Shown: in pieces, positions 7,209 to 16,326 of the stretch
Numbering within the stretch: the stretch's first letter is position 1
How the letters are laid out: each line of letters starts with the position of its first letter
NCBI GenBank assembly: GCA_029262115.1
Contig: JAJCZZ010000034.1
Coordinates: forward strand, 1-64,000
DNA: 64,000 bases
DNA from: Gemmatimonadota bacterium
Lineage (GTDB): Bacteria; Gemmatimonadota; Gemmatimonadetes; Longimicrobiales; Gaopeijiaceae
Direction: 5' to 3'
Notes under the pieces: model-generated
Told to the model about the DNA's origin: nothing
The model's database searches: none
The model's input: the letters and a program-made list of their open reading frames with translations, nothing else
Position numbers and translations under genes: made by a program

Positions 7209-8219
7209 GTGAGCGACTTGGTGTCCAACGAACCTGTTGTCGATCCCAGCCATTCGTCCAGAGAGCGGTGCATGGTCGTTTCGACGAATCGACAGATGTT
7301 GACCAGCAGCCAGGCGGCGGAGCTCCTGGACGTCCATCCTTCTACGGTGAAGCGGTGGTGCAACGACGGCGAACTCGGGTTCGACAAGACGAGCGGCGGC
7401 CACCGACGCATCGGGCTGGACGCGGCCATGGACTTCGCACGGGCCCGCAGGATCTCCACGGTCCTGACGCCGTTCCACCCCTATGAGCCACACGTCTGGT
7501 CCGCCCTCTCGGAAGCAGAGGAAGAAGGTTCGTACCGTCGCCTTCTCTCGCTGGCCATGGGGTGGGTTCACCGCGGGCGCCTGGAGCGGGTTGGCCTCCT
7601 CCTGGACGCGCTGGGCCAGAGTGATCGCGTATCGTTTTGTGGCTTTGCGGACGGCGCGGTGCGCATCCTCATGAACGAGGTGGGGAGGGCCTGGTACGAC
7701 GGGCGGCTGCGGGCCGGCGAGGAGCACATGGTGTCACAGATCGTCACGGAGGCCCTTCTCCGATACCGAGAACGCGCCATCGCCTCGCGTCCGGAGCCAA
7801 CCGCCGGTATCGCGGTCGTCGGTGCATCGGAGGGGAACCAGCACGCGCTCGGAGCCCTGATCGTTCGGATTCTTCTCGAGAGCAAGGGGTGGCGAGTGCT
7901 GTACCTCGGCCCGGACGTGCCCCTCGAAGACTTCGCGAACATTCAGCGTGCACGCGGTGCCGCCCTCGTCTGTGTGTCGATGTCTCCGTCGTCCGCCGTG
8001 GGTGACGTGCTGCGCGTGTTCGGAATCCTGACGGAGTTCTACGACCCGTTCCGCCCGTACACGCTGGCCGTCGGGGGTGCCGCACCGGAGGGAGCCGACG
8101 CCTCCCTTCTGGCGGGCGGGCCGTTCGCCGAGGCTGACTTCTTCTCCAGCTGCGGCGCGTTTTCGGAGCGTCTCGAGCGTGGGTGGGCGACGGCCCCACG
8201 CCGGGAGAACGGGCCATGA
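7209..8219 (+). CDS. carH: CarH/LitR-type B12-dependent light-sensing MerR regulator
   Basis: The product has 336 residues. The MerR-type helix-turn-helix spans about 30-75 (TSSQAAELLDVHPSTVKRW then TSGGHRRIG). The four-helix B12-binding domain spans about 95-190, and a Rossmann-like cobalamin domain spans about 200-330. The lower axial ligand motif is present as EGNQHALG (His212). W162, E172 and H173 reproduce the W-x9-EH pattern that in CarH proteins contacts the adenosyl group of AdoCbl. Known CarH proteins repress carotenoid genes in the dark and release DNA on photolysis of AdoCbl. The stop overlaps the next gene (ATGA), so it heads the carotenoid operon and likely controls it. GTG at 7209 is used; an in-frame ATG at 7272 also exists. 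Confidence 0.9.
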   Translation: MSDLVSNEPVVDPSHSSRERCMVVSTNRQMLTSSQAAELLDVHPSTVKRWCNDGELGFDKTSGGHRRIGLDAAMDFARARRISTVLTPFHPYEPHVWSALSEAEEEGSYRRLLSLAMGWVHRGRLERVGLLLDALGQSDRVSFCGFADGAVRILMNEVGRAWYDGRLRAGEEHMVSQIVTEALLRYRERAIASRPEPTAGIAVVGASEGNQHALGALIVRILLESKGWRVLYLGPDVPLEDFANIQRARGAALVCVSMSPSSAVGDVLRVFGILTEFYDPFRPYTLAVGGAAPEGADASLLAGGPFAEADFFSSCGAFSERLERGWATAPRRENGP

Positions 8220-9121
8220 GCCGCCTGGGCGGTCGGCCTGCCGAGAACATTGCGCTCCTGGCGCTCGTGGGCTTCACGCTGGTTGCGCTGGCCGGGTATT
8301 GGAACTTTGCGCTGCACCCCGAACGGCTCGCGGCCTTCCCCGGCGCACTCGACTTCTATTCGACCTCATATCAGTTCTTTGCTCGCAGCCATATCGTGTT
8401 GTCGAGTATAGTGTTGGGCCTTGTCCTTATCGGACGTCTCGGGCTCCAGTGGCTGCCGGCCTTGCTGGCCGTCTACCTGCTCAGCTTCGTCTCGGAGCAT
8501 GTGGGAACGGGCTTCGGCATCCCCTTCGGGGGATACGGATACACGGCCATGCTGGGGGCCAAGCTCGGGGGGCGGGTGCCGCTCCTGATTCCCCTGAGTT
8601 GGTTCCTCATGGCCTTCCCATCCTGGCTCCTGGCACGCCATGCCGTGGGTGCGAAGGCACCGGCGATGATCCGGGTCTTCCTGGGCGCTCTCTGGCTGAC
8701 GGTGTGGGACCTGGCCCTGGATCCGGCCATGAGCCACCTGACGAGCTACTGGATCTGGGAGGAGACCGGACCCTACTACGGGATGCCGTGGATGAATCTC
8801 GTCGGATGGTATGCGACGGGCATCGTGCTCATGACGGCACTCGAGGGGACCACCCGCCGGCTGCACGTGGACGCCCTACCGGTTGGGTGGATCGGGGCCT
8901 ACTACGGTGTGGTGGCGCTCATGCCCCTGGGGATGCTGGTTGCGGCGGGCGAGTGGTTGGCGGTCGGCGTCTCGCTTGCCGGCCTCGCGTTCGCGTGGCA
9001 TCTGGGCCGCGCGCTCGGCCGGATGACGCCGAAGCAGCCGGTCCTGGCGGACGACCCCGCGGACGGCCCCGCACCGGAAGATTCCGACGCGCCTCGCCTC
9101 GCCTCCATGGGGGCCCGCTGA
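8216..9121 (+). CDS. cruF: CruF-like carotenoid 1,2-hydratase (DUF422 membrane protein)
   Basis: This 301-residue integral membrane protein has about seven hydrophobic segments and the DUF422/CruF signatures. These are FVSEHVGTGFGIPFGGYGY (about 79-97), PLSWFLMAFPSWLL, WDLALDPAMSHLTSYWIW and YYGMPWMNLVGW. CruF proteins add water to the psi-end of acyclic or monocyclic carotenoids to give tertiary hydroxyls; the haloarchaeal homologue makes bacterioruberin. Some Gemmatimonadota make oscillol-type carotenoids that need such hydration. ATG 8216 overlaps the regulator stop (ATGA) and the stop overlaps the next start (TGATG). Which carotenoid is hydrated cannot be read from the sequence. Confidence 0.82.
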   Translation: MSRLGGRPAENIALLALVGFTLVALAGYWNFALHPERLAAFPGALDFYSTSYQFFARSHIVLSSIVLGLVLIGRLGLQWLPALLAVYLLSFVSEHVGTGFGIPFGGYGYTAMLGAKLGGRVPLLIPLSWFLMAFPSWLLARHAVGAKAPAMIRVFLGALWLTVWDLALDPAMSHLTSYWIWEETGPYYGMPWMNLVGWYATGIVLMTALEGTTRRLHVDALPVGWIGAYYGVVALMPLGMLVAAGEWLAVGVSLAGLAFAWHLGRALGRMTPKQPVLADDPADGPAPEDSDAPRLASMGAR

Positions 9122-11154
9122 TGCCCACGACGCCCGCCGGGCTGATCGGCACGGTGCCCACGACCGACATCGCTCCCGGCGGCACGTCCGTGCTTCCACG
9201 CGACGATCAGACGGTACGGAGGGGCCTGGAGCGAGTGGCTGCGCACCTCCGCGATCAGGGCGTCGCGGTGCCAGCGCTCAGGGGGAAGCTGCTCCGCCCC
9301 ATGGTGGCGTACGCCCTGGTCCCGCCACAGAAGCGCGCCATGCTCGACGACCGGTTCTGGTTCGGGGCCCTCGCGATCCAGATGGTTCACGAGGCATCGC
9401 TTCTTCACGACGACATTCTGGACGACGCCGAGACACGCCGTGGTCGCCCCACCCTGTGCACCGAGCACGGGATCGCGGCCGCTCTGGTGCGTGGGGACCA
9501 GTACCTGACGGCGTCCTACCGGGCGGCCGCCCTCACCCGCTGGCCTGCCTTTCTGGATGTGTTCATCCGGTCGGTGGAGCGGACGGTGGCCGGAGAAGTC
9601 GAGCAAGGTCGCGCGGCCGGCGTCGTCCTTGATCGGGCGGCCTACGAGCAGATCATCCTGGGCAAGAGTGGTGAGCTGTTCGGGGCGGCGGCCAGCCTCG
9701 GAGGCCTCGGGGATGGCGCGGAGGCGGACGCTCGCAGCCGGCTCGGCCAACGACTCGGCGCCCTCTACCAGAGAGTGGACGACCTGCTCGACTACTGCCA
9801 GGCCGCCGAGACCGGCAAGCCGCCATTCCAGGACTACCGCCAGGGCAAGTGGACGTGGGTTCTCGGGTTGGCCGGGGTGGAGAGTTTCGCCTGGACGAGC
9901 GAGGCGGTGGCCCGTGCGGTCTTCGGCGCGGTGAGCGGGTCGTCTCCCGCACGCGCCGCCGTGGAAGAGCTGGAGCGAACCCGGTACAGTCTTCTCGGAG
10001 CCGCTCAGGAACTGGCGCCCGAGGACGTGATCCTGTCCGACGTGCTCGACGATTGGATCCGCGCGGCCCGGGAGGGGATCGCTCGACAAGAGGCATGCCT
10101 CGCGAGGGACGGTGCAGTCGCCCGGAACGGAGGCGCGCCGGCTGGAGGCGGTCCTGTGAGGAACGGAGCCGCCGCCCGGGACGGAAGCGCGCCGCGGGAT
10201 GCGGATCCGGCGAGGGAATCAGCAGCTCCCGGGATGCCGGTCCGCACCGACCCGGTGCGCGAGGTGGCCGAACTGGCACGCGACCTGGGCGGGCCCGACG
10301 ATTGGGCGGCCTACTTCGCCCAGCACGCTCGCACTTTCCGGTTCGCCGCACGGCTCTTCCCGAAGGCCGAGGGTGCACGTGTGGCATCGCTGTACGCCTT
10401 CTGCCGCTTTTCCGACGACCTTGTCGACAACCCTCACGACGGTGCTCCTGCGGACGTCCTGACCGAGCGGCTCAGCGCCTGGCGAACGCTCGCCCGGGCC
10501 GCCTTCGACGGCGTGAAGACGGACATCCCGCTCCTGGACCACGTGATGGCCCAGGCGCGAGACCGTGGCGTGGATTGGCTCTACCCCGACGCCGTGCTGG
10601 AGGGCGTGGGCATGGACCTCGTGCCGTGGGCGTACCGCGACTGGGACGACCTCGAAGCCTATACGTTCGGGGTGGCGGGAGCGGTCGGCGGCTGGATGAG
10701 CCAGCTCTTCGCTGTGCACGACCCGGAGATGCTCGAGCAGGCGCACGCGCTGGGGCACGCCATGCAGTTGACGAACATCGTGCGGGACGTCGGCGAGGAC
10801 TGGCGGATGGGTCGTTGCTACCTCCCACAGGAGCTTCTCTCCAGCCACGGCATCACCGTTGGAGACCTCGCCGCCCTCGTGTCCGGGGCGGTGCCGGTGA
10901 CGCCGGCCTGGCAGGCCGTCATGGAAGACGTGATGGACCGGGCCGACGCGTGGTACGACCTTGCGTGGCCTGGCATACGTGGGCTCCCGAGTTCGTTCCG
11001 CAGGCCCGTCGCCGTGGCGGCCGCCGCCTACCAGGGGATCCACGACGAGGTGCGCCGAAACCGGTGGAACAACCTGAACCGTCGGGCCGTCACCTCGCGC
11101 TCACGAAAGGCCGTCCTGGGGCTGGGCGGCCTGCGACGGGCGGCCCGCCCGTGA
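9121..11154 (+). CDS. crtEB: Fused geranylgeranyl diphosphate synthase-phytoene synthase (CrtE-CrtB)
   Basis: One 677-residue reading frame holds two enzymes. Residues 1-322 form an all-trans polyprenyl diphosphate synthase: first Asp-rich motif DDILD at 97-101, RRGRPT at 106-111, second motif DDLLD at 220-224. The residue five before the first Asp is Ala, consistent with C20 or longer products. Residues 380-677 form phytoene synthase: YAFCRFSDDLVDN with DDLVD at 432-436, and NIVRDVGEDWRMGRCYLP from 552. Between them lies a 50-residue linker rich in Gly, Ala, Arg, Asp and Pro, with degenerate ARDG/RNG repeats. The pair would turn FPP/IPP into GGPP and then phytoene without release. TGATG couples it to cruF, and GTGA couples it to the acyltransferase. 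These activities are normally on separate proteins. Confidence 0.93.
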   Translation: MPTTPAGLIGTVPTTDIAPGGTSVLPRDDQTVRRGLERVAAHLRDQGVAVPALRGKLLRPMVAYALVPPQKRAMLDDRFWFGALAIQMVHEASLLHDDILDDAETRRGRPTLCTEHGIAAALVRGDQYLTASYRAAALTRWPAFLDVFIRSVERTVAGEVEQGRAAGVVLDRAAYEQIILGKSGELFGAAASLGGLGDGAEADARSRLGQRLGALYQRVDDLLDYCQAAETGKPPFQDYRQGKWTWVLGLAGVESFAWTSEAVARAVFGAVSGSSPARAAVEELERTRYSLLGAAQELAPEDVILSDVLDDWIRAAREGIARQEACLARDGAVARNGGAPAGGGPVRNGAAARDGSAPRDADPARESAAPGMPVRTDPVREVAELARDLGGPDDWAAYFAQHARTFRFAARLFPKAEGARVASLYAFCRFSDDLVDNPHDGAPADVLTERLSAWRTLARAAFDGVKTDIPLLDHVMAQARDRGVDWLYPDAVLEGVGMDLVPWAYRDWDDLEAYTFGVAGAVGGWMSQLFAVHDPEMLEQAHALGHAMQLTNIVRDVGEDWRMGRCYLPQELLSSHGITVGDLAALVSGAVPVTPAWQAVMEDVMDRADAWYDLAWPGIRGLPSSFRRPVAVAAAAYQGIHDEVRRNRWNNLNRRAVTSRSRKAVLGLGGLRRAARP

Positions 11155-11864
11155 GCACCCGGTGGCCGTGGCGCGTCTTCGATCTGGCTCGGCGACCGTG
11201 GATGGCGCTCCACCTTCGGGTCCACATGACGGGTGGCCGCACCGCCCTTCCCGCGGGGCGCGTCCTCCTGCTGTCGAACCACGAGACGTTCTGGGACGGC
11301 TTCCTGATGCGCGACGTCCAGCGCCTCCTGTGGCCCGAGCGGTCGTTCCATGCCGTCATGCTCCAACGTGAACTCTCTCCCCGCCCCTGGCTTCGCCCCC
11401 TGGGAGCCATCGGTGCCCAACCCGGCTCCGTAGGCGGCGGCCGACACCTCGTCCGCGCGCTCGACGGCCTCCCGTCCGACGCCGTGCTGGCGTTTTTCCC
11501 TCAGGGGAGGATCCACCCGGGATCGCCTCGTCCGCTCGCCTTCAAGCCCGGGGTCGAGGTCGTGCGTCGGCGATTCGAGCCGGTGGCGACGATCCCGGTG
11601 GGAATCCGGCTGACCGGGGGACGGACGCCGCGGGCCGACGCGTACGTGAGTATCGGACCACCCATCGCCCCCCACCCGGGCCGGCGCCCCCGGGGCACGG
11701 TCCTCGAAGCGGCGGTTACGGCGCAGATTTACAATATCGAGGCCTTCCTGGCGCGGCACGGTGAAGACGCTCCCGACGCATGGCCCGGTCCGGGCGGCGA
11801 ACTCGACGCCGCCCCCTCGCCGCCACACTGGCTGCAGACGGTTCCCTGGACCGCGAGGAACTGA
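11151..11864 (+). CDS. PlsC-like lysophospholipid acyltransferase-fold protein, possible carotenoid acyltransferase
   Basis: This 237-residue protein has the acyltransferase H-x4-D motif NHETFWD (about 43-49). The second block, FFPQGRIHPG (about 115-124), has Gln where most PlsC proteins have Glu (FPEG). A later IPVGIRLTGG block follows. The family transfers acyl chains from acyl-ACP or acyl-CoA to glycerol-phosphate or other hydroxyls. Because the gene is locked between crtEB and crtI (GTGA overlap upstream, 1-bp gap downstream), acylation of a hydroxylated or glycosylated carotenoid is more likely than bulk phospholipid synthesis; this is inference. No glycosyltransferase is seen in the cluster. 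Confidence 0.75.
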   Translation: MSTRWPWRVFDLARRPWMALHLRVHMTGGRTALPAGRVLLLSNHETFWDGFLMRDVQRLLWPERSFHAVMLQRELSPRPWLRPLGAIGAQPGSVGGGRHLVRALDGLPSDAVLAFFPQGRIHPGSPRPLAFKPGVEVVRRRFEPVATIPVGIRLTGGRTPRADAYVSIGPPIAPHPGRRPRGTVLEAAVTAQIYNIEAFLARHGEDAPDAWPGPGGELDAAPSPPHWLQTVPWTARN

Positions 11865-11865
11865 C

Positions 11866-13422
11866 GTGACGAAGCCACGGATCGACACCGCCGTCGTCAT
11901 CGGGAGCGGCTTTGGAGGCTTGGCCATCGCGGCTCGGCTCCAGGCCGCCGGGGTCGCGGTCACCCTGTTCGAAAAGCGGGAGAAGATCGGAGGACGGGCG
12001 TACCAACTCGAAGACAGCGGCTACACCTTCGACATGGGGCCGAGCTTGATCACGGCCCCCCACGTGATCGACTCCATCTTCCGCGCGGGGGGACGCCGCC
12101 TCGGGGACTTCGTCGATCTGGTTCCCTTGGACCCGTACTACCGGATCTACTTCCACGACGGGACCCACCTCGACTACGTGGGCGATCCCGAGCGGATGAA
12201 GGCGCAGATGCGCCGCTTCTCCTCCAGGGATGCCGACGCCTACGATCGGTTCATGGAGGCCATCCGGCCGATCTTCGACTCCGTCATTGGCGACCGGCTC
12301 GGATCCAGGCCGTTCGACTCGCTCGGGACGATGATGCGGTTCCTTCCTCAGATGGCCCGCCTGGGCGCCTACATCCCCGTCACCCGATTCGTGAACCGGT
12401 TCTTCGAGGACTTCCGGCATCGCTTCATCTTCTCGTTCCACCCCCTGTTCGTGGGGGGCAATCCGTTCGCCACGCCGGCCATCTACCTCATGATCCCGTT
12501 CCTCGAGCGCGAGGGTGGGGTCTGGTTCGCGAAAGGCGGGATGTACTCGGTCGTGGAGGCGCTCGGGCGGCACTTCGAGGACCTCGGTGGAGAGATCCGC
12601 ACCGGCGCTGAGGTCGATCGGATCCTCGTGGAAGACGGGCGGGCCGTCGGTGTGCGTAGCGGTGACGAGACGATCCGAACCGACGTGGTCATCAGCAACG
12701 GCGACCCGGGCCACACGTATGGGACACTACTGGAGACCAGCGCTCGTAAACGATGGAGCGACAAGAAGTTGAAGCGCACCGACTGGAGCATGAGTTGCGT
12801 CCTCCTCTACATCGGAACGCGACGCCAGTATCCCCAGTTGGAGCACCATACGCTCATCCTGTCCGAGCGGTACAGGGAGCTACTCCGGGACATCTTCGGC
12901 AAGAAGATCCTCCCGGACGACTTCAGCATGTACCTCCACGCACCGACACGCACCGACCCCGGAATGGCGCCGCCCGGCTGCGAGAGCATGTACGTCCTGA
13001 TTCCCGTGGCGAACCAGGCCTCCGGCCTCGACTGGGGTGACATCAAGGAAGGGTTCGCCGATCGCGTGATCGACTTCCTGGAGGCGTGGGGCCTGGACGA
13101 CCTCCGTGCTCAGATGGACGTGTTGCACATCTTCACGCCGGACGACTTCGAGACGGAGATGAACGCCACGCTCGGCAACGCGTTCGCCATCGAACCGCGC
13201 TTCACCCAGACGGCGTGGTTCCGCCCCCACAACCGAAGCGAGGATGTGGACGGGCTCTACCTCGTGGGTGCTGGGACACACCCCGGTGCCGGCGTGCCCG
13301 GCGTCCTGATGTCGGCCGAGACGACGTACGGGTGCATCGCCCACGACCATGGTCTTCCGGACCAGTGGGACTGGGACGAGCCGGGTCGCGTCGCTCTCGG
13401 GGAGCTTCAGCCGTCGTCGTGA
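11866..13422 (+). CDS. crtI: Phytoene desaturase (CrtI family)
   Basis: The product has 518 residues. The N-terminal FAD-binding motif is VVIGSGFGGLAIAARL (about 10-25), followed by EKREKIGGRAY and DMGPSLITAP. The C-terminal signature is LYLVGAGTHPGAGVPGVLMS (about 466-485). CrtI uses FAD to desaturate phytoene stepwise, usually to lycopene or related acyclic carotenoids. It is the last gene of the carH-cruF-crtEB-acyltransferase-crtI operon; the GTG start lies 1 bp after the previous stop. Homologues also include 3,4-desaturases (CrtD), but with only one desaturase in the cluster the phytoene step is most likely. The 3' end overlaps the convergent epimerase gene by 16 bp. Confidence 0.92.
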   Translation: MTKPRIDTAVVIGSGFGGLAIAARLQAAGVAVTLFEKREKIGGRAYQLEDSGYTFDMGPSLITAPHVIDSIFRAGGRRLGDFVDLVPLDPYYRIYFHDGTHLDYVGDPERMKAQMRRFSSRDADAYDRFMEAIRPIFDSVIGDRLGSRPFDSLGTMMRFLPQMARLGAYIPVTRFVNRFFEDFRHRFIFSFHPLFVGGNPFATPAIYLMIPFLEREGGVWFAKGGMYSVVEALGRHFEDLGGEIRTGAEVDRILVEDGRAVGVRSGDETIRTDVVISNGDPGHTYGTLLETSARKRWSDKKLKRTDWSMSCVLLYIGTRRQYPQLEHHTLILSERYRELLRDIFGKKILPDDFSMYLHAPTRTDPGMAPPGCESMYVLIPVANQASGLDWGDIKEGFADRVIDFLEAWGLDDLRAQMDVLHIFTPDDFETEMNATLGNAFAIEPRFTQTAWFRPHNRSEDVDGLYLVGAGTHPGAGVPGVLMSAETTYGCIAHDHGLPDQWDWDEPGRVALGELQPSS

Positions 13423-14792
13423 CGGCCCAACTGAAAGCGGAGCGACTCCTCGACGCCCTCGAAGGCGAAGCGGAAGTCCGAATCGAGCGCCACCTCCGGG
13501 AGGACGCGCTGCCCCTCGAGTAGCGCTTCCTTTCCGAGCTCTCCGAACGCCGCCTTCACCGCCAGGGCGGGGACCGGGATCACCGTGGGTCGTCCGAGGA
13601 CGGTGCCGAGCACGCTGCTGAAGGTGCTGTTCGTAACGGGATGGGGCGCCGTGGCATTGACCGGCCCCGATACCGAGCGGTCCATCAGAGCGTGGTGGAT
13701 CAGGCCGACCACATCGTCCAGGTCGATCCAACTGAGGTACTGGCGACCGCTTCCGAGGCGTCCGCCGACGCCCATCTTGAAGGGAAGGAGCATCTTGCCC
13801 AGCGCGCCCCCTTCCGGCGAGAGGACGACGCCGGCGCGCAGCCGCACCACCCGGACTCCGGCCCGATCGGCAGGGCGAGTGGCCGCTTCCCAGTCCTGCG
13901 TCACCGAGGCGAGGAAGCCCTTTCCCGCCTTGCTGGCTTCCGTCACCCGCTCGTCGTTCCGGTTGCCGTAGTAGCCCACCGCCGACATCGACACGAGCAC
14001 GCGTGGTCCACCTCTCATCTCGGCCATGGTTCGGGCGAGTAGGTCGGTTCCCTCCACCCGGCTGCGACGGATGGCCTTCTTGCGCTCGTCGGTCCAACGC
14101 CCGTCGGCGATCGGCACCCCCGCGAGGTGCACGACGGCGTCGGCCTGGGCCAAGCCATCGGCATCGATCTCCTGCGTCGAGGGGTTCCAGAAGATGGCAT
14201 CCGGCCCGACCCGCGCGCGCTCCCGTACCACCCGGATGACCCGGTGCCCCCCGGTCGTCAGGAAGTGGGTGAGGCTCGTTCCGATCATGCCGGACGAACC
14301 CGTGATGGCCACGGTCATCCGGGGGCGCTCGGACCACCGGGCGTGGCGCGCCAGGTCGTTGGCGAGACGGGTCTGCCGGAACCGGAAGAGCCGCTTCAAC
14401 TCCCCCTCGATGAACCCGGGCGCGAGCGCGGCACCGGCCGGCCCGAGCGGAGGCTGGACCTCGATCGTGTCCGTCATCGTCGTGCCGCCCGCGCCGTCCG
14501 GCTCGAAGCGGTGCGTATGCTCCCATGCCTTGAGCGGTCCGGAGAGCTGGGTGTCGCGGAACTGCTCGTTCTCGACGAAGTCCTTGTGGACGAGCTCCCA
14601 CCGGAACGACGCCGGGCCCTGACGGACGCGCAGGACGACCCGCGCCCCGTCACGGATCCCACCCTCCTTCTCGACGACGTCGACGTTTGCCCACGGGGGG
14701 GTCAGCCGCTCGAGAGCACCGGGACGCTCATGCCACGAGAAGACTTCGGGGACCGGGTGGCCCGGCAACTCCGTTCGGAAGGTGAATCGCAT
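13407..14792 (-). CDS. SRPBCC domain fused to TIGR01777-family NAD-dependent epimerase
   Basis: The product has 461 residues. Residues 1-150 form a START/SRPBCC-like ligand-binding domain (FTFRTELPGHPVPEVFSWHER, later FRFRQTRLANDLARHARW). From about 158 follows an extended SDR domain with ITGSSGMIGTSL (163-174), HLAGVPIADGRW and VLVSMSAVGYYGN. This two-domain layout is known for the TIGR01777 (YfcH-like) group, whose substrate is unknown. It is convergent with crtI (16-bp overlap of 3' ends) and lies just downstream of the photolyase gene on the same strand. Such genes often neighbour LitR/CarH regulators and photolyases, which suggests a light- or stress-linked role. Confidence 0.85.
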   Translation of the reverse strand: MRFTFRTELPGHPVPEVFSWHERPGALERLTPPWANVDVVEKEGGIRDGARVVLRVRQGPASFRWELVHKDFVENEQFRDTQLSGPLKAWEHTHRFEPDGAGGTTMTDTIEVQPPLGPAGAALAPGFIEGELKRLFRFRQTRLANDLARHARWSERPRMTVAITGSSGMIGTSLTHFLTTGGHRVIRVVRERARVGPDAIFWNPSTQEIDADGLAQADAVVHLAGVPIADGRWTDERKKAIRRSRVEGTDLLARTMAEMRGGPRVLVSMSAVGYYGNRNDERVTEASKAGKGFLASVTQDWEAATRPADRAGVRVVRLRAGVVLSPEGGALGKMLLPFKMGVGGRLGSGRQYLSWIDLDDVVGLIHHALMDRSVSGPVNATAPHPVTNSTFSSVLGTVLGRPTVIPVPALAVKAAFGELGKEALLEGQRVLPEVALDSDFRFAFEGVEESLRFQLGRHDDG

Positions 14793-14862
14793 CGGTCTGC
14801 AGTCGGAAGGGTGGGCGTCATCGGCGGAACCGTACCCCGCACCGCGCGGAGGGTGCTCCCGA

Positions 14863-16326
14863 TCAGACTCCGAGGCTCTCCTGGCCGCCCCATCGGCCGA
14901 GGTACCCGTTCACGTCGATCTTTCGGCGCGTCGAGGCCGAGGTCATCGACCGCACCTTCCCGTACAGGGCACGCTCTGGCCATCCCCGATCGAATCGGCC
15001 CAGGACCCAGAAGATTCCGGTATACGAGTTCGGGTCCCGTCCGTCGATGGCGTACTTGTTGTTGAGCTCGACCATGATATCGAGCGCCTGCCGAGGGTGC
15101 GGCGTCCACTCGAGGATCTTCTTGCCCCAGAGCATCCTCAGGTAGTTGTGGATGACCCCCTCGGCCACGAGTTGGCGCTGCGCGGCATTCCAGAGTTCGT
15201 CGTGGGTTGCAGCGGACTCGAACTGCTCCAGAGAGTACAATGCTGGCCGCGGGTCGCCCGCATGCTCTTCCAGCGTGGCCCGTGCCCATTCCGGCAGGGA
15301 GTCGTATTCCGCGTAGTTGGGGCGCAGCGCGCAGAAATTGAAGCCGATCTCCCTCCACGTGACGAGCTCATCGAGGAATTTCTCGGCATCTGGATCGAGG
15401 CCCCACCACCCCTCGCGCTTCCCATCCGAGCGAGGCGACAGGCGCGCGGGACTCCAGCCGGACCGGGCGGCCACCGCGTGGAAGATCTCGTGGACGGACA
15501 CGTGCCCCCAGTGCAACCACGGCGACAGCCCGCTCTGCCCGTCCCGGTCGGGGTGGTTCCGGTCGGTTCCATAGCGGGCGAGGCCGGTGTCGATGAAGCG
15601 TCTCAGGCGGGCGCGTCCGGCCGCTGAACCCCCACACGCAGCCACGGGACCCACGGAGTGGTCGATGGGCAGGTCGGACAGCACCGAGGGTCCGCCCCCC
15701 AGGAGGTCGCCGGACGCCGACGGCCACCGCCGTAGGACAGTTGCAGATACGGTCGCGGGCGGAAGCGCCCGCTCACGCGAGAACGGATCGGGATCGGGCG
15801 CGTCCAGCAGGTGCTCCGGGAGCGTCTTCTGCAGGAACCGGCGGAAGTGGAAGGCCGCGCTGAACGTGCGATCCGCCGCAGCGATAGGGAGCAGACCGCA
15901 GGAATCGACCCCCTCGAGGAGCACCGACACGGCGCGGGCGGCGGCTTCCTGCATCGAGGGGAGAAAGAACGCGGGGTAGCGGTCCGTGACGATCAGGCAG
16001 GCGGAGCGGCTCAAAGCCTCCAACAGCCCCTTGCCCGCGCCCGGACTCGGTTCGACATACGGGTAGTAAGCCACCCGAGCCGCTTGGAGTACGCCCACGT
16101 GTTCGGCCATTCCGTCGATCACGAAGCGGTGGTGTCGGTCCGACGCCCATCGGTACCCCGCGCGCAACGGCTCGAAAACGAGAAGCGGCTTCCCGAGTGA
16201 ATCGGCGTGGGCCAGCGCCCGGTCGAGGCCGAAGTTCCACGACAGCCGCCGTTGGGCCACCATCCAGTAGAGAACGTAGTCGCCGTCCGGACGGATCGGC
16301 GCTTCGTTCAGGCGCGCGACACGCAG
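14863..16326 (-). CDS. phr: Class II CPD photolyase, apparent CTG start
   Basis: Deoxyribodipyrimidine photolyase repairs cyclobutane pyrimidine dimers with FAD and blue light. Class II features include YWMVAQRRLSWNFGLDRALAH at the N-terminus and WREIGFNFC in the middle. The C-terminal FAD region has LRMLWGKKILEWT, LNNKYAIDGRDPNSYTGIFW and FDRGWPER. The first ATG (16261-16263) lies inside the conserved GDYVLYWM block, so it would remove about 21 residues of conserved N-terminus. The in-frame codons upstream are conserved in type (VARLNEAPIRPDGDYVLY) and end at a TAG at 16327-16329. The only suitable start is CTG at 16324-16326, with GGAG 8 nt upstream. The product would have 487 residues; use of the internal ATG gives 466. 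Confidence 0.9.
   Translation of the reverse strand: MRVARLNEAPIRPDGDYVLYWMVAQRRLSWNFGLDRALAHADSLGKPLLVFEPLRAGYRWASDRHHRFVIDGMAEHVGVLQAARVAYYPYVEPSPGAGKGLLEALSRSACLIVTDRYPAFFLPSMQEAAARAVSVLLEGVDSCGLLPIAAADRTFSAAFHFRRFLQKTLPEHLLDAPDPDPFSRERALPPATVSATVLRRWPSASGDLLGGGPSVLSDLPIDHSVGPVAACGGSAAGRARLRRFIDTGLARYGTDRNHPDRDGQSGLSPWLHWGHVSVHEIFHAVAARSGWSPARLSPRSDGKREGWWGLDPDAEKFLDELVTWREIGFNFCALRPNYAEYDSLPEWARATLEEHAGDPRPALYSLEQFESAATHDELWNAAQRQLVAEGVIHNYLRMLWGKKILEWTPHPRQALDIMVELNNKYAIDGRDPNSYTGIFWVLGRFDRGWPERALYGKVRSMTSASTRRKIDVNGYLGRWGGQESLGV

Follow-up and report, generated by a model that had tools for sequence, protein, structure and literature searches.

Natural proteins that join phytoene synthase (PSY) to another carotenoid enzyme form a short list, in which CrtYB, CrtIBY, a protist four-domain form and CrtIB have been described (PMC10016063, PMC10284914). 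In the fungal CrtYB/CarRA/AL-2, the protist CrtIBY and the verrucomicrobial CrtIB, the partner is a lycopene cyclase or a desaturase and acts after phytoene. The CrtE-CrtB gene described here is likewise a natural fusion of phytoene synthase with a carotenoid enzyme, but its partner acts before phytoene and is predicted to make the substrate, thus adding a new pairing to that list.

A GGPP-forming prenyltransferase tethered by a long, flexible stretch to a GGPP-consuming alpha domain is found in the fusicoccadiene synthase PaFS and in the fungal prenyltransferase-terpene synthase (PTTS) chimeras. PaFS carries its GGPP-making and GGPP-using domains on a flexible linker and achieves proximity channelling without a tunnel (PMC8190136). 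CrtE-CrtB differs from PaFS in being bacterial, in its shorter linker, in its opposite domain order and in its consumer, a head-to-head condensing enzyme of the Pfam SQS_PSY family rather than a class I cyclase, which sets it apart from the PTTS type. The same two enzymes have been placed in one chain in engineered PSY-GGPPS fusions, which are said to have improved phytoene formation from IPP, lifting conversion from about 60% to a nearly quantitative level (Camagna 2019, cited in PMC9399743); these, as described there, are artificial, of plant origin and carry the GGPPS C-terminal to PSY. Purple bacteria and other Gemmatimonadota carry out the same reactions with separate CrtE and CrtB from two genes, the separate CrtE being of the type with an insertion in the first aspartate-rich motif (FARM), the IspA/CrtE type, unlike the fused half.

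At GGPP the routes to carotenoids, quinones and further terpenoids diverge, and GGPP synthase has been fused with phytoene synthase by engineers to prevent leakage. The gene is a natural counterpart of such hand-built fusions of consecutive carotenoid enzymes, bringing together what are most likely the maker and the user of a 20-carbon precursor. A search of the open-access literature, with subscription papers and protein-architecture databases outside its scope, found no natural CrtE-CrtB or CruF fusion, in agreement with an earlier note, made from the DNA letters, that had called a prenyl synthase fusion a non-standard form. The natural fusion is apparently previously undescribed, although priority is not proven.

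A conserved fusion of two synthase genes

The window, a stretch of 64,000 nucleotides from a Gemmatimonadota genome, contains the fusion gene at 9121-11154 on the plus strand, where translation is free of stops for 677 residues and ends in TGA. The N-terminal, trans-prenyl diphosphate synthase half (9202-10098, plus strand, residues 28-326) matches Pfam polyprenyl_synt (PF00348) over residues 53-249 (5e-35, 121.4 bits against a gathering score of 27) and contains the FARM, DDILD (9409-9423, residues 97-101), and the second aspartate-rich motif (SARM), DDLLD (9778-9792, residues 220-224). It is followed by a low-complexity linker rich in G, A, R, D and P (10099-10254, residues 327-378, about 52 aa). 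The C-terminal, phytoene-synthase (CrtB) half (10255-11151, residues 379-677) matches SQS_PSY over residues 400-662 (4.4e-60, 204 bits against 26) and carries DDLVD (10414-10428, residues 432-436) and DVGED (10786-10800, residues 556-560). Translation and Pfam together bear out the continuous frame and the four aspartate motifs reported in the earlier note. At about 70% GC, the window has many wrong-frame open reading frames of 250-650 aa, so that an open frame across the linker is by itself little proof of a fusion; the proof comes from conservation.

Relatives were sought in 59 related genomes and in 395 genomes sampled from the phylum. Complete fused frames were extracted from 36 distinct genomes (38 loci, two of which repeat the window), and 25 fusions with 37-54% identity to the window protein were aligned. 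The fusion occurs in the Gemmatimonadota family groups f1, f3, f5 and f7; in both f2 genomes the frame is cut by a contig end, with the synthase tail and PSY still in one frame. It is also present in a second phylum-level group, in a record titled Myxococcota. Contamination of that record is unlikely, a second genome of the group having a triple fusion. Searches for a mobile source gave no plasmid record covering 80% of the query, and predicted viral structures yielded just prenyltransferase-like matches.

An assembly artefact, or a missed stop or frameshift joining two genes, has in its favour that the genome is a draft of 110 contigs and that contigs of one relative (G158) break near the GC-rich linker. 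It is refuted, and its chance is negligible, by the dozens of other genomes and by two single-contig chromosomes, G005 and G123 (CP070829.1, 'Gemmatimonadales bacterium bin109'), in which the fused frame is intact. The two outcomes that the earlier note had named as fatal to a fusion, an assembly error near 10100-10240 and homologues that are all separate, are therefore both set aside, most close homologues being fused. The CrtE-CrtB fusion is real, natural and conserved in dozens of genomes.

An internal start that would release free PSY was considered as well and rejected: a linker start codon with an SD-like sequence is found in just 14 of the 36 fusions, four linkers lack a start codon and no internal start is conserved.

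Catalytic residues, phylogeny and predicted products of the two halves

In the phytoene-synthase half, both aspartates of each motif (D432/D436 and D556/D560) are invariant across the 25 aligned fusions, as are the equivalents of CrtM R45, D48, D52, Y129, Q165, N168, R171, D172 and D176. The PSY halves group together in a single clade (97-99 SH-aLRT). Its sister comprises the CrtB of Proteobacteria and of f3 genomes, while the tandem HpnC/HpnD genes lie far from it. The pocket is of a kind permissive for C20 substrates, with no Phe at either of the two positions that restrict CrtM to C15 substrates: F26, a Phe in C30 enzymes, is replaced by Ala410 in the window and by Ala, Ser or Thr in all 25 fusions, and F233 by Leu622 and by Leu throughout. 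CrtM mutants F26A/S/L accept GGPP (PMC13304436).

Annotation thresholds are of less help. The NCBIfam CrtB equivalog models, which span narrow groups and whose cut-offs are annotation thresholds rather than biochemical features, give 157, 128.6 and 124.6 bits against 500, 480 and 550; the HpnD equivalog gives 175.5 bits against 278.6. As neither name is reached in this way, CrtB rests on tree, pocket and operon, whereas an HpnD or squalene-pathway identity is rejected by trees and cut-offs alike. From these three lines the second half is most likely a CrtB phytoene synthase, predicted to form phytoene from GGPP; it belongs to the sole SQS_PSY gene found in the genome.

The synthase half has the Pfam score, both DDxxD motifs and the substrate-binding residues of a trans-isoprenyl diphosphate synthase. 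None of the 25 fusions departs from the FARM and SARM aspartates, R59, H90, R106, R107, K182, Q217 or K233; Lys56 of the IPP site is Gln or Ser in eight. The synthase halves also group as a single clade (99 SH-aLRT), separate from the long-chain and the IspA/CrtE-type synthases of the same genomes. Within this clade fall two stand-alone Spirochaetota genes (L065:4527-5477 and L068:8836-10221), from two of the 149 genomes of that group, with no phytoene synthase beside them.

Chain length is less readily read from the residues. The FARM insertion is absent and positions -5/-4 of the FARM are Ala-Ser, a pair shared with the Thermotoga octaprenyl synthase TmOPPS; moreover, Phe148 aligns with F132 of TmOPPS, which we take to be the floor residue of that enzyme. 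The window's fused protein scores below the NCBIfam GGPP synthase cut-offs. Such likeness to an octaprenyl synthase would fit a first half making C25-C40 products, which would serve as a polyprenyl supply of their own or feed C45/C50 backbones, a reading that is nevertheless improbable: the PSY pocket of the partner half is of the C40 type, as is the carotenoid operon, a long-chain synthase is already encoded in the genome, and eukaryotic type III GGPP synthases likewise have Ala-Ser at -5/-4. Less probable again, and very much a long shot, is that an open TmOPPS-like tunnel would deliver C25 or mixed chains for direct condensation by the tethered PSY, giving C45/C50 backbones without later elongation. 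The earlier note is supported as regards the intact active-site motifs; its name GGPP synthase is drawn from context, and the chain-length residues are ambiguous.

The genome encodes two more synthases that score above the Pfam cut-off, one long-chain (C54) and one short-chain (FPP/GGPP) of the IspA/CrtE type with Tyr at -5 (C81). An IspA/CrtE-type synthase was present in all 31 genomes tested, with or without the fusion; its FARM is the same in both sets, and position -5 is nearly always Tyr. The fused synthase half is absent from G119, G128, G377, G409 and G075, and these relatives presumably obtain GGPP from the IspA/CrtE-type enzyme. An argument that the fused half must be the GGPP synthase by elimination of other sources was dropped, because the IspA/CrtE-type enzyme shows these residues with or without the fusion and G075 lacks the fused half. 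The presence of that enzyme in every genome tested would suit a first half of low catalytic ability that serves as a scaffold or regulator, with GGPP supplied from elsewhere in the genome. This is unlikely, to a slightly greater degree than C25-C40 products, since a scaffold without activity should have little reason to retain the FARM, the SARM and the other catalytic residues unchanged.

The reading we favour, with good though not full confidence, is an enzyme at the start of carotenoid synthesis that has both GGPP synthase and phytoene synthase activity and acts through the proximity of its tethered domains. The N-terminal half would condense DMAPP, GPP or FPP with IPP to form geranylgeranyl diphosphate, and the C-terminal half would join two GGPP head to head into phytoene, to be desaturated by the neighbouring CrtI and hydrated by CruF.

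Linker and domain arrangement

AlphaFold2 modelled the window protein at a mean pLDDT of 87.5, with both domains mostly above 90, and Foldseek matched the model to CrtM-like enzymes and trans-prenyl synthases. Residues 336-357 and 359-374 fall below pLDDT 50, most of the linker in all, consistent with the flexible, low-complexity tether of Gly, Ala, Arg, Asp and Pro noticed earlier; with a pTM of 0.54 the arrangement of the domains is not fixed. Linker length among fused relatives spans 7-52 aa, the window's being the longest, and the sequence is unconserved. A linker this variable and disordered, together with domains in no fixed arrangement, fits tethered proximity and not a tunnel. Substrate channelling, which the earlier note had considered likely, is by the same properties reduced to plausible at most.

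In the favoured bifunctional enzyme, the floppy tether would provide equal stoichiometry and a local concentration of GGPP, with proximity channelling at most, as in fusicoccadiene synthase. As is usual for trans-prenyl synthases, the first half probably forms dimers, which would cluster at least two phytoene-synthase domains.

A variant of this explanation denies just the proximity effect. Both halves would be active and GGPP would diffuse freely, the fusion serving expression through 1:1 stoichiometry and a shorter operon, with no kinetic benefit. The unconserved, length-variable linker would agree with this, and tethering appears dispensable because G119, G128, G377 and G409 keep CruF and PSY without the synthase half; on the other side, the fusion has been kept across several families, and the engineered PSY-GGPPS fusions, as far as the citation of Camagna 2019 in PMC9399743 conveys, did raise conversion to phytoene. 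We regard a purely expression-based role as a serious possibility of somewhat less than even chance. The range of linker lengths, the triple form with CruF described below and the relatives lacking a half make up a comparative set on the flux benefit of tethering.

Operon and related gene arrangements

The fusion stands in the middle of a compact run of five genes on the plus strand, carH–cruF–crtE-crtB–plsC–crtI. The first (7209-8219) encodes a CarH-like MerR/B12-binding regulator with Pfam HTH_17 and B12-binding domains (NCBIfam CarH 5e-15, below cut-off), and is kept beside the fusion in many relatives. It contains the Wx9EH motif, WYDGRLRAGEEH, a mark of B12-dependent light sensing. The regulator likely represses the operon in a light- and cobalamin-dependent manner, and the motif suggests that the operon is probably light-induced. 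Two residues before the B12-ligand His, where Glu or Asp is usual, the window's regulator (7209-8219) has Asn (GNQHALG).

The second gene (8216-9121) encodes a CruF-type carotenoid 1',2'-hydratase (Pfam Caroten_synth 1.8e-46; NCBIfam CruF 2.4e-35, below cut-off). After the fusion come a PlsC-like acyltransferase (11151-11864; NCBIfam acyltransferase 2.4e-4) and a CrtI-type phytoene desaturase (11866-13422; TIGR02734 4.2e-175, above cut-off), the latter kept beside the fusion. The PlsC-like protein may acylate the carotenoid end product, probably a carotenoid glycoside, and its gene also occurs at L144, L155 and the Rhodothermota CruF-CrtB loci. Neighbouring genes overlap or abut, by ATGA at 8216 (carH/cruF), TGATG at 9119 (cruF stop and fusion start), GTGA at 11151 (fusion/plsC) and a 1-nt spacing between plsC and crtI, which suggests translational coupling. 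A promoter scan found no promoter. The order CarH-CruF-fusion-CrtI is found again in most relatives. Downstream, the minus strand (13407-16263) encodes an SRPBCC-domain epimerase of TIGR01777 and a photolyase of the phr2 type, a pair that recurs beside the operon in relatives.

Four arrangements occur within the PSY clade: CrtE-CrtB, CruF-CrtE-CrtB, CruF-CrtB and separate genes. CrtE-CrtB is found in Gemmatimonadota and in G411. The triple fusion CruF-CrtE-CrtB, a single frame of 1005-1025 aa, is present in two genomes of the Myxococcota-titled group (G403 and G408); its loci, L059:7798-10875 and L188 (G408), have CarH upstream, and L059 has CrtI downstream. CruF and CrtB share one frame with no synthase domain in five Rhodothermota-group genomes (G404, G414, G419, G441 and G496), and these forms make up one clade (93). 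Their loci (L062:8110-9969, L236, L237, L238 and L239) have the same operon context. The arrangements have the order cruF-(crtE)-crtB in common, which suggests that adjacent genes were joined in frame within one operon lineage. CrtE-CrtB may have had a single origin followed by losses, or several origins.

Several single cases were also observed. In G001, of the window's genus, the synthase half stands alone (L147:6300-7500), its frame ending soon after the linker with crtI directly next, and the genome, which is 89% complete, yielded no SQS_PSY gene. In the f2 genomes G043 and G055 (L160:8400-10643 and L162:2-1987) the fusion frame runs about 260-295 aa past the PSY half, in an extension that has no Pfam match, contains a hydrophobic segment and is conserved (47% identity). 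In Candidatus Kapaibacterium (L087:8869-10748), crtI, a prenyl synthase gene and crtB overlap or lie adjacent, forming an unfused analogue.
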